This document shows positions 25,193 through 29,762 of a stretch of 42,751 nt of DNA, piece by piece. The notes under the pieces are model-generated. The model had not been told where the DNA came from and did not search any database. It was given only the letters and a program-made list of their open reading frames with translations. Position 1 is the first letter of the stretch, and each line of letters starts with the position of its first letter. The DNA is from an uncultured Pirellulaceae bacterium. Its GTDB lineage: Bacteria; Planctomycetota; Planctomycetia; Pirellulales; Pirellulaceae. The translations under genes and the position numbers were made by a program. The stretch covers positions 1 to 42,751 of the forward strand of contig CALFWL010000058.1 of assembly GCA_937928215.1 (NCBI GenBank), in the 5' to 3' direction.

Positions 25193-26014
25193 GTGACCAT
25201 GTCGAACTTCATGTCAAATCTGAAGACCCTCAACAGCGTCGTTCGCACCGGTCTGCTGCTCGGTTTTTTGGGACTGTTTGGATACGGAAGTTGGTTCGGG
25301 TATGAGCGCTATGTGAAACCCGGCTTGCAGGCGGAAGCCGCCATCGCGGAGGCCGCAAGGCTTGAGAAAGAACTGGCAGCCTCGCTGGAGAAGCAACAGC
25401 AACTGACCGTCGAAAACGATCGAATGCAAACGTCGCTGAAGTTGCTCAAGACGGATCGCCGGATCGCGAATGTCGAAATCATGGAGAAATCGCAGGACGA
25501 GGATGGATCGCCCGTTATGGAAGTCCGCTTCACTGAGGTGGACGAAAACGGCGATGCGGTTGGAGCATCGCGAGACTATACCCTCAAGGGAGACCAGTTT
25601 TTCATCGACTGCTGGATCGCCACTTTCGAAGACAAGTACATTGAAGAAGCGGACGAGTTGCGGAATGCTTCCCTGTTTGCTTTCAAGAGTATCTATGGCG
25701 ATGCAGAACGTCCTCGGGATGCTCAGCGACTGGATTCAGATTCGAACGACCGGCCACCAGGCATTTACGATGATCATCGTAAACGGGATTTCGAGCAGAA
25801 GATCTGGCGTGATTTCTGGGCCGTCTGCAACAATCGTGCTCGTCAAAAAGAGCTTGGCATTCGAGCCGCGTATGGTCAGGCAAACCACTTGGTTGCCGAA
25901 GCCGGTCAGCGATATCAGGTTGTGATTCGATCCAGCGGCGGAGTCAGTTTGACGCCGATTGAGGGAGATCCCGCAGACGCGGAAGAGGCCGAATTCGAAG
26001 ACGACGAACCGTAA
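25193..26014 (+). CDS. Hypothetical membrane-anchored coiled-coil protein
   Basis: N-terminal TM 'VVRTGLLLGFLGLFGYGSWFGYE', then coiled coil; GTG start at 25193 or ATG at 25199. Confidence 0.7.
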   Translation: MTMSNFMSNLKTLNSVVRTGLLLGFLGLFGYGSWFGYERYVKPGLQAEAAIAEAARLEKELAASLEKQQQLTVENDRMQTSLKLLKTDRRIANVEIMEKSQDEDGSPVMEVRFTEVDENGDAVGASRDYTLKGDQFFIDCWIATFEDKYIEEADELRNASLFAFKSIYGDAERPRDAQRLDSDSNDRPPGIYDDHRKRDFEQKIWRDFWAVCNNRARQKELGIRAAYGQANHLVAEAGQRYQVVIRSSGGVSLTPIEGDPADAEEAEFEDDEP

Positions 26015-26133: not shown

Positions 26134-26928
26134 CTACTGACCGGGAGCGACTCCTGGAGCCACGCTGTTTCCTGTTCGCAAGCTCCAGCGCACACCGAAG
26201 TCACCTGTTTCTTGAAGGAATCGAGAATTCGCGCTGGTGGTCAACGATTGGATAAACTCAGGCTCGATGTCCGCTTGCCCCCAGTCCGTTTTTAGCTCGA
26301 CCGCTGGCAGGGTTGGCCGACCTGTCACCGTATCGCCGTTGGTTAGTACAACGACCGCTGAATCCTTGTTGTCGATCTGAAAGCGAATGCCGGCTACCTG
26401 ATCCATCGGAATGTCGATGTCACCAAACTTGGATTTCAGGGAGAAGCTGTGAAAGCCGTCCATGTTGCCCGCCATGACCTGGGAATCGGTCATGCGAATA
26501 AAGAATGTGTCTCCTTCGCTTCCGGCAAGCATGGGTGAGGGAGTCACGGGAGCTTCATACTTAAGAACAATTTGCGAGAAATCATTCCCAGATTGTTTGA
26601 CGGGGATTCGAACGGGCTGGCCTTTCAACTGTCCGATCAAATCCTCGTCGAGCGCCAGCGAAGCGTTTTCCCCGGAAACACTGATCGGGATTCCCAGTTC
26701 GATTGGTTCTTCTTCATTCGTCTCTTCGTATTGAAGCTCGATGAAGCTGATCTTGTTACGGTATTTTTCTGGCACTTGAGAACGCAGGCTACCGTAGCTG
26801 CGAAGGCTGCCGACCAACTTGCTGTCCAGTTTCAGCACAAAACGTGTCTGATCTTGAGCGAAGGAATCGCTGGTCAGGAACAAGGCCGCAATGACGGCGA
26901 CACAAATGAGTGATCGAGATTGAAACAT
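26134..26928 (-). CDS. Secreted duplicated FG/WG-module protein, paralog A
   Basis: Signal peptide 'MFQSRSLICVAVIAALFLTSDSFAQD'; 'SLKSKFGDIDIPMDQVAGIRF...VVVLTNGDTVTGRPTLPAVELKTDWGQADIEPEFIQSLTTSANSRFL'. Homologous by eye to the next two genes. Start trimmed from 27180. Confidence 0.8.
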   Translation of the reverse strand: MFQSRSLICVAVIAALFLTSDSFAQDQTRFVLKLDSKLVGSLRSYGSLRSQVPEKYRNKISFIELQYEETNEEEPIELGIPISVSGENASLALDEDLIGQLKGQPVRIPVKQSGNDFSQIVLKYEAPVTPSPMLAGSEGDTFFIRMTDSQVMAGNMDGFHSFSLKSKFGDIDIPMDQVAGIRFQIDNKDSAVVVLTNGDTVTGRPTLPAVELKTDWGQADIEPEFIQSLTTSANSRFLQETGDFGVRWSLRTGNSVAPGVAPGQ

Positions 26929-26971
26929 GCTAACTCCGAGGATTCCGATTTTTTGACAGTGTTCAGTTTTC

Positions 26972-27898
26972 TTAGAAACTGGAATTTGACAATCCGCGAT
27001 AGGCTGGATTGGCGGGAAAACGTGTAGGTGCTCGACGTGGGGTTGACGGTTTTGCGGGTTGGGACAGAACCCATTGCCTGTCTGCTTTCGAGTCGCCGTC
27101 CAGAAAGCGGGACTCGCGATCGTAAGTGATCGATTCCAGTTTGCTAACGGGAATCGTTTCATCACCCCAACGAGTAGCAAGTACGATCTGATTCAAATCG
27201 ATGCTGCCCGTTAGATAGTCACCGGTCACCGAAATAACTACGACTTCGTTGGCTTCGTCCGCATTGAACCGAATCCCGGCGATCCGATTAAGTGGGATTT
27301 TGGTCGATCCAAACTGCGTTTCGACCGTTAAAATTTTCATACTCCGAATCCACCCGGTCGTTCCATTCTGGGGTGAAAGCCGCACGAAAACTCGCGGACT
27401 GTCGTTTGGTTGCGGTTTTGTACCCCGACGGAGCGATGCCAAGCGAGCTTGATTTTTCGGACGCTGGTACTTGAGCGTGATCGAGTCGAACCCAGACTGG
27501 TAGATTTTCATCTGAACAGGCTGGTATTCGAGTCGGTCGACAATCGATTCGTCAACGTTCACGAGCAACGTGCGACCGAGCTTGTCAACGTCGTCGTCGA
27601 CGACAAGCTTTTTCGAAAGGAAAGTCGTCGGGTGCTTCAGCAAGATCGAGTCAACTCGATTTCGAAATTTGGCAGGTAACGTGGCTCGCAACTGACCATC
27701 GCGCCGTAACGCGGATGCTTCCAGTTCACCGATTGTCAGCACGAGCATGTACCGCTCTTGCTTTTCCGACGTGTCCGCCACTTCAGCCAGTTCTTTTTCC
27801 TGACCAGTCAAGGAACCGCAGCAAAGGCACAGAGCCAAGAAACCCATCCACGCCACCAAGACGCGAGAGGCTATCCCGATTTTCATGCTTTCGATCAT
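26972..27898 (-). CDS. Secreted duplicated FG/WG-module protein, paralog B
   Basis: 'TVETQFGSTKIPLNRIAGIRFNADEANEVVVISVTGDYLTGSIDLNQIVLATRWGDETIPVSKLESITYDRESRFL'; N-terminal region also matches paralog A. Start trimmed from 27985. Confidence 0.8.
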   Translation of the reverse strand: MIESMKIGIASRVLVAWMGFLALCLCCGSLTGQEKELAEVADTSEKQERYMLVLTIGELEASALRRDGQLRATLPAKFRNRVDSILLKHPTTFLSKKLVVDDDVDKLGRTLLVNVDESIVDRLEYQPVQMKIYQSGFDSITLKYQRPKNQARLASLRRGTKPQPNDSPRVFVRLSPQNGTTGWIRSMKILTVETQFGSTKIPLNRIAGIRFNADEANEVVVISVTGDYLTGSIDLNQIVLATRWGDETIPVSKLESITYDRESRFLDGDSKADRQWVLSQPAKPSTPRRAPTRFPANPAYRGLSNSSF

Positions 27899-28122
27899 GG
27901 GCTCTCCTTGTGCCGATTCTATCCGTCGGGCTGATAACATGATGACAGAATCACGCCCCGGCAGAGTTAGTAACTTGATCTCCAAAGGTCAGTCGCTCGA
28001 AGCCTAACGACTGACCGATCCGCAACGGTTGTTGCTACACAACTGTATGACCAGATCTATTCCTGCGAACTCAAACCAACGTCCGGAACGATGCGCCGTT
28101 CATTTAATTGGCGTCGGCGTCG

Positions 28123-28139
28123 GTCTGAAAAAATCAGAC
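28123..28139. terminator. Perfect hairpin with A/T-only loop immediately 3' of paralog C
   Basis: GTCTGA-AAAAA-TCAGAC; on the coding (minus) strand GTCTGATTTTTTCAGAC, starting 5 nt after the stop of 28144..28611. Confidence 0.45.
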
Positions 28140-28143
28140 TGAA

Positions 28144-28611
28144 CTACCGACCTTGGCGAACGGGAACAGGCTGGGCTTTCGTGAAACGCCATCCGGATCC
28201 GCCGGTGGTGTTGTCGGTAAAAAACCGAGCGTTCTTGTCAGTGGTGATCGTTTCGATCTGAGTCGCGTCGATGTGAGCGGTACCCCAATCAGTCTTCAAT
28301 TTAACCTTTTCTAGGTTGACCTTGCCTGAAAGCATGTCGCCATTTTTGAAGGCCAGAACCGCGCCGTTGCCTTCGCCAATGTTCATCTTGATGCCATCGA
28401 TTTTGTTCATTGGAACTTTGACTTCGCCAAAACTGGTCGAAACACTCAGCTCATCAAGTTCGACGACCGAACCGGTTAGTTCTCGATTTTGGCTGACCGA
28501 AATAAAGACCACTGAATCGGCAGGACCTTCAACCGATTGGGCTGCGGCAAAATTCATGGTTGCCGGGGTCAACATCAATGCCAACGCGAGGCTCTTGAGA
28601 AAATAGTTCAT
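28144..28611 (-). CDS. Secreted duplicated FG/WG-module protein, paralog C (minimal form)
   Basis: Signal peptide 'MNYFLKSLALALMLTPATMNFAAAQ' then 'SVSTSFGEVKVPMNKIDGIKMNIGEGNGAVLAFKNGDMLSGKVNLEKVKLKTDWGTAHIDATQIETITTDKNARFF'. Confidence 0.82.
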   Translation of the reverse strand: MNYFLKSLALALMLTPATMNFAAAQSVEGPADSVVFISVSQNRELTGSVVELDELSVSTSFGEVKVPMNKIDGIKMNIGEGNGAVLAFKNGDMLSGKVNLEKVKLKTDWGTAHIDATQIETITTDKNARFFTDNTTGGSGWRFTKAQPVPVRQGR

Positions 28612-29084: not shown

Positions 29085-29762
29085 TCAGGGTGAGATTCTG
29101 AATCGCTGCCAGCCATCATCGCCCGCTAGATAAATCAGGCGATCGTGCAAGCGATCGAGTCGCCCCTGCCAGAACTCGACTTTCGTGGGAACAAGTTGGT
29201 AGCCTCCCCAGTTGGCCGGCAGCGGAACCGGCTGATCGCCCAGCTCTCTATCAAGCCGATCACGCGCCTCCTGAAGCTGCTGGCGGGACTGGATGACGGA
29301 CGACTGCCGCGACACAGCGGCCCCCAACTGCGCGCCGCGAGGGCGGCTGTGAAAATACGTTTCGGAAATATGATGCGAGGTCCTTGTGACGCTGCCCTCC
29401 ATGCGAACCTGACGGCCTTGGTGAGGCCAGTTGAAAACGACAGCGGCTGCGGGGTTATTCGACAACTGCTGACCTTTGGTCGATTCGTAGTTGGTGAAAA
29501 ATCGGATCGAACCCTCACCGAGCCCTTTCAGCAACACGATGCGAGCTGTCACCGCGCCTGACGAATCCGCGGTCGCCAGTGTCATCGCGTTCGGTTCAAA
29601 CCACTCACCGGGTGACGCAGCAACCGCCGCATCAAACCAAACACGAAACTGCTCGATCGGGTTGTCAAGCAACCGTTCGTCGTCGATCCCATCTGTCTGG
29701 TACTCCTTGCGAAGTGCCTGAAAATCCATCCTTGATTTGCTGTCGTTTGATTTTTTGCTCAT
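29085..29762 (-). CDS. pdxH: Pyridoxamine 5'-phosphate oxidase
   Basis: 'PNAMTLATADSSGAVTARIVLLKG', 'FFTNYESTKGQQLSNNPAAAVVFNW', 'RQVRMEGSV', 'VEFWQGRLDRLHDRLIY'. Confidence 0.95.
   Translation of the reverse strand: MSKKSNDSKSRMDFQALRKEYQTDGIDDERLLDNPIEQFRVWFDAAVAASPGEWFEPNAMTLATADSSGAVTARIVLLKGLGEGSIRFFTNYESTKGQQLSNNPAAAVVFNWPHQGRQVRMEGSVTRTSHHISETYFHSRPRGAQLGAAVSRQSSVIQSRQQLQEARDRLDRELGDQPVPLPANWGGYQLVPTKVEFWQGRLDRLHDRLIYLAGDDGWQRFRISP

Follow-up and report, generated by a model that had tools for sequence, protein, structure and literature searches.

What are the three small proteins encoded side by side on the minus strand of a Pirellulaceae planctomycete genome, and what might they do outside the cytoplasm? 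The genes, A, B, and C, are neighbors within a window of 42,751 nucleotides (the whole stretch of DNA that was analyzed), which belongs to an assembly of 4.15 Mb. The initial annotation described them as co-oriented reading frames with signal peptides. Their coordinates and strand were borne out (Table 1), and all three proteins have a basic, hydrophobic N-terminus when read by eye. Judged in the same way, cleavage after AAA in C and after SFA in A is plausible, and the cleavage site of B is unsure. The mature proteins contain no cysteines.

Table 1. Positions of genes A, B, and C and of their parts in the window
Feature	Position	Strand	Description	Basis
Gene C	28144..28611	-	155 aa, putatively exported, core without extra domain	ORF, homology to A and B, AlphaFold model
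C signal peptide	28540..28611	-	residues 1-24, cleavage between AAA and Q	sequence by eye
C FG half-module	28372..28509	-		alignment of halves
C WG half-module (NGD...TDWG)	28228..28368	-		alignment of halves
Gene B	26972..27898	-	308 aa, putatively exported; N-terminal domain and core; fastest evolving of the three	homology, long tree branches
B N-terminal domain common with A	27449..27754	-	internal beta-alpha-beta-beta repeat	BLASTP/homology
B FG half-module	27248..27388	-		alignment of halves
B WG half-module	27101..27244	-		alignment of halves
Gene A	26134..26928	-	264 aa, putatively exported; N-terminal domain and core	homology, AlphaFold model
A signal peptide	26857..26928	-	residues 1-24, cleavage between SFA and Q	sequence by eye
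A N-terminal domain	26551..26856	-	two beta-alpha-beta-beta repeats	secondary structure; repeat-vs-repeat hhalign
A FG half-module	26365..26502	-		alignment of halves
A WG half-module	26221..26361	-		alignment of halves

In the window, 43 bp separate B from A and 245 bp separate C from B. Two congeners (G134 and G144) have the same C-B-A order, with all gaps at ~63-106 bp. Such short gaps are compatible with an operon without proving one, and the three genes may be co-transcribed. A scan for promoters and terminators gave no excess over shuffled sequence. Gene A is convergent with a plus-strand gene at 25199-26014, whose product has a single membrane segment at its N-terminus, a coiled-coil stretch, and no Pfam match.

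That the three proteins are alignable paralogs was confirmed by pairwise BLASTP, with E-values of 3e-31 for A/B (over 237 aa), 2e-23 for A/C, and 5e-24 for B/C. No further copy was found in the assembly by either a single-sequence search or a 30-sequence profile search. The core common to all three is internally duplicated as well. The FG half had been thought to be a copy of the WG half, and a profile-profile comparison of the halves, cut from an alignment of 33 homologs, upheld this with an hhalign probability of 95.7, an E-value of 9e-9, and a score of 36.7. In the controls, the highest score among 200 column shuffles was 18.5, and the reversed profile scored 16.4. When the comparison is confined to the three window proteins, the repeat is marginal (score 21.5, E 2e-4), and it is the relatives that make the duplication solid. 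Invariant or nearly so are the FG, the NGD-x-x-T-G turn, the WG, and a C-terminal tryptophan.

A and B additionally share an N-terminal domain that C lacks, as was confirmed by BLASTP and profile searches. The initial annotation had not noted that this domain is a duplication in its own right, being predicted from secondary structure to consist of a beta-alpha-beta-beta unit occurring twice. Repeat 1 aligns with repeat 2 at an hhalign score of 22.6, against a shuffle maximum of 13.5. Profile comparison found these repeats unrelated to the core halves, and the domain occurs at strong E-values in this genus only. Two nested internal duplications, one of the core halves and one within the A/B N-terminal domain, are thereby demonstrated at the level of sequence profiles.

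Core matches were obtained in 26 of 149 sampled Pirellulaceae genomes, a count that includes one false positive, G127 (E 2e-4), which was discarded as a homolog because the match sits in an ABC-transporter frame. A scan of genome contigs matched nothing with C alone and needed an alignment as its query. The genomes include Rhodopirellula sallentina, Neorhodopirellula, Rubripirellula, and Aporhodopirellula together with MAGs. Single-copy homologs, which the earlier description did not mention, are thus scattered through the family, most genomes having one copy and a few having two or three. The C-B-A order itself recurs in two of the five sampled congeners, G134 and G144, and the remaining three gave no match. 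In a phylogenetic tree the three C, three A, and three B proteins each cluster by gene, with support of 94/94, 95/99, and 91/87, respectively. Since the gene order recurs and the orthologs of each gene group together, the triplication is older than the split of these species. The exact position of B in the tree is unsure owing to its fast evolution and long branches. In G134 the B gene (L070:7114-7935) no longer encodes the FG and WG residues; it sits on a very long branch and is apparently drifting. On sequence evidence, with the export signals read by eye, A, B, and C are homologous, module-duplicated, and putatively exported proteins with a conserved gene order.

Local duplication happened more than once, as is seen in G052, where two core proteins form a tandem pair of independent origin (L084:1574-2101 and 2255-2770; also L098) and a third copy lies elsewhere. 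A pdxH-like gene (29085-29762, minus strand) adjoins C just upstream in the window, and in genus g60 a pdxH-like gene lies directly downstream of the single-copy homolog (L089:8274-8927, L097:7518-8171). This common linkage suggests the ancestral locus as the source of C. A mobile-element or phage origin was set aside, as searches gave neither a plasmid homolog of A nor a match to a phage family.

The reading as an exported, tandem-duplicated family lacking a characterized Pfam match is supported: against the Pfam and NCBIfam models, the window family stays below every cut-off. The half-module is partly catalogued as NCBIfam NF047433, where no function is assigned. This follows from L037, a planctomycete repeat protein that is matched by the core profile at E 4.6e-7 and scores 84 bits against NF047433 (cut-off 43). 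L037 also grazes RimP, Hfq-like, and LSM models. Within the window family, three of 30 members match NF047433 (best E 0.028) and none reaches the 43 bits. Judged by profile similarity and by way of L037, the half-module of the window family is homologous to that of NF047433. It shares the pattern NGD-x-(L/I)-x-G ... T-x-(Y/F)G-x-x-x-(I/V) with the NF047433 "LA_0442/LA_0875 N-terminal domain", PTPDL, LA_3334, and LB_137. Unlike that group, the window family always has two coupled halves and a hairpin, and it stands alone rather than ahead of an outer-membrane or enzyme domain. The window family is a variant of a module that is otherwise known only as an uncharacterized NCBIfam domain.

Of 294 genomes drawn from the phylum, 31 more are weakly matched by the core profile, for the most part through one half-module or a series of them within a large exported protein. 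DUF481, FGE-sulfatase, NPCBM, LamG-like, or esterase domains are found in these proteins. As an N-terminal part, the NGD half-module recurs in large planctomycete proteins that are exported (L038, L040, L044, L050, L051, L052, L060, and L061), together with domains as different as FGE-sulfatase, DUF481, LamG-like, 3-keto-disaccharide hydrolase, and NPCBM; Pfam has no model for the half-module. A profile comparison of half-modules picked from other planctomycetes by regular expression was selection-biased and is not counted as evidence. Because in other planctomycete families the half-module stands ahead of NPCBM, LamG-like, FGE-sulfatase, DUF481, and esterase domains, A, B, and C might be imagined as a periplasmic accessory module that binds a ligand (glycan, peptidoglycan, or a small molecule), as when fused to lectin-like or enzyme domains. 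This is very unlikely, however, as A, B, and C have neither a partner enzyme nor a known carbohydrate-binding domain, and no binding signature was found in them.

AlphaFold2 models of the mature proteins have a pLDDT of 87.9 for A and 84.2 for C. The predicted core has five strands in each half, the fifth preceded by a three-residue helical turn, and a C-terminal hairpin brings the total to 12 strands (5+5+2). When the models were compared with the PDB by Foldseek, the HsiE1/TagJ entries 4uqx, 4uqy, and 4uqz ranked first for both A and C, and the homologous Vibrio protein 1zbp ranked sixth for C. The best structural match of both models is the C-terminal barrel of the ImpE family (PF07024; TagJ/HsiE1), which has 12 strands, as does the predicted core. 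The ImpE-family matches have probabilities of 0.98-1.00 but are weak by E-value, at 0.02-0.11 (0.03 for C), no match reaching 0.001. The C model superposes on the ImpE structures with a query-normalized TM-score of 0.42-0.48 and an rmsd of 3-6.5 Å over ~106-135 columns. The "ImpE fold" of HsiE1 is a 12-stranded barrel beside a hydrophobic groove, which holds the extended N-terminus of TssB/HsiB1 (PMC4239648).

The initial annotation had instead proposed an SH3/Sm-like barrel, and part of this proposal stands. Each half does have five strands and a short turn before strand 5, and it shares this five-strand plan and a glycine-turn motif with the Sm/LSM/Hfq and SH3/Tudor small barrels. Each half could accordingly be an independent small barrel, the two forming a tandem binding module, and it fits with this that distant relatives weakly graze Sm, Hfq, and RimP models and that tandem Tudor domains and Sm proteins are among the lower Foldseek matches. 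Those structures superpose poorly, however, with low probability and an rmsd >10 Å, compared with 3-6.5 Å for ImpE. Moreover, unlike these small barrels, the window proteins are putatively exported, and none of the three has an Sm/LSM or SH3 family match in Pfam or NCBIfam. Two separate barrels are thus unlikely, and a single 12-strand barrel built from both halves is favored because the ImpE structures superpose well and the SH3/Sm-type structures do not. A sequence search of the PDB gave chance-level matches only, with SmD1 among them. A relation to PH domains is conceivable but unsupported. The Pfam bacterial-PH matches (E 0.02-0.04) are far below the cut-off, and the double-PH domains (the middle domains of SSRP1, Pob3, and Rtt106) that appear at ranks 5-12 and lower in the structure search with C superpose with an rmsd of ~10 Å over ~70 columns.

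At the sequence level, a profile of planctomycete ImpE barrels scores 30.0 against the core profile, and 100 column-shuffled cores reached at most 20.1. The match (hhalign probability 48%) takes in the first half but no more than the beginning of the second. Its confident columns are limited to the region where the first half ends and the second begins, and extension through the second half gave none. Both families have a T-x-G / (V/I)P..I..I.F segment followed by an NG(D/G) turn. The PF07024 profile matched neither A, B, C nor 30 relatives, and a search of this assembly with it found no ImpE gene. The relationship of the core to ImpE is suggestive and unproven, and it does not amount to membership of that family. 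ImpE is an accessory protein of the T6SS and begins with a TPR domain; the window proteins instead carry signal peptides and lack a TPR: TPR models do not match A, B, or C, C having no N-terminal domain and A and B having the beta-alpha-beta-beta one. The signal peptides, as read by eye, argue against a role as a cytoplasmic TssB partner in the T6SS. ImpE-like proteins of planctomycetes also include a distinct subgroup (family f25, L151-L158) of 333-395 aa with a shorter barrel segment ("LEIVTNGELRFVPFSEIASIEF").

If the fold points to a peptide-binding barrel, the neighborhood of the homologs offers a candidate partner. Profile searches and tables of adjacent genes showed that a YTV-type gene adjoins the single-copy homolog in ~15 of 38 distinct genomes when adjacency is taken as the next gene on the same strand; it lies directly upstream in 13 and directly downstream in two. 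Most homologs (~23 of the 38 genomes) have no YTV neighbor. In a Pfam scan seven of these neighbors were above the PF07639 cut-off and five scored 16.5-20.1 bits, just below 21; the latter five are clear homologs of the former. Each examined genome has ~4-8 YTV genes among the matches listed, as compared with several thousand genes in all, and chance adjacency is therefore well under one percent per genome. The linked cases are not independent, owing to common ancestry, and probably represent two or three events. The gaps between YTV gene and homolog are ~13-460 bp and are no proof of co-transcription. In the five genera compared, the homolog retains the YTV gene and a divergent TPR gene as neighbors, and the other flanks mostly differ. 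The TPR gene is divergent from the YTV gene in a conserved block of TPR, YTV, and barrel protein (L073:4288-5586, L082, L087, L095). In the window, no YTV gene lies beside the C-B-A array, the YTV genes of this assembly being on other contigs.

The cysteine-rich YTV proteins have been recovered from cell walls prepared from Rhodopirellula and Gemmataceae (PMC8567305; also PMC10632474). Single-copy homologs often share a locus with these planctomycete envelope proteins (PF07639), and the adjacency hints at a role in the unusual planctomycete cell wall. The window proteins are not themselves YTV homologs: unlike the cysteine-rich, low-complexity YTV repeats, they are predicted barrels, and PF07639 matches none of A, B, and C. 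A disulfide link to YTV proteins is impossible since the mature window proteins have no cysteine.

The same neighbors would also fit an envelope protein with a passive role, either structural or at the surface. Its barrels would be packed into the proteinaceous wall or into the surface of the outer membrane and serve no dedicated client, the YTV adjacency then reflecting shared expression only. The export signals, the Ala/Pro-rich linkers of the homologs, and the lack of a catalytic signature in any library searched are all consistent with this. The conserved FG, NGD, WG, and RW residues may instead suggest a specific surface, though they could equally be structural. Such a passive role is possible but on the whole rather improbable.

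To our knowledge, how planctomycetes export and assemble their cysteine-rich YTV proteins has not been described, and no accessory factor has been named. The reading tentatively preferred here, which is plausible though still short of probable, is that A, B, and C are extracytoplasmic ImpE-like barrels that bind extended polypeptide and most likely serve YTV proteins. The core would be one barrel in which the five-strand module, duplicated as FG half and WG half, is closed by the C-terminal hairpin. By analogy with HsiE1, its hydrophobic groove would hold an extended stretch of another protein, and outside the cytoplasm the barrel would serve as an adaptor or help with assembly. The most likely clients would be cell-wall proteins of the YTV class, which are rich in cysteine and have extended repeats, because single-copy relatives adjoin YTV genes. 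In this genus the gene would have been duplicated twice, A and B gaining the duplicated N-terminal domain, probably for further contact.

A bolder version, which is distinctly unlikely, makes this exported, module-duplicated form of the ImpE/TagJ peptide-clamping barrel a dedicated chaperone or adaptor of planctomycete YTV cell-wall proteins. If true, it would be among the first recognized accessory factors of the proteinaceous planctomycete wall. The resemblance to ImpE also suggests an origin for the peptide-binding barrel that is known only from type VI secretion: duplication of a simple half-module, one that is widespread in envelope proteins of planctomycetes and Leptospira without a named function. 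Small, conserved, putatively exported, and found repeatedly beside YTV genes, the family offers a concrete and testable candidate for planctomycete wall assembly.
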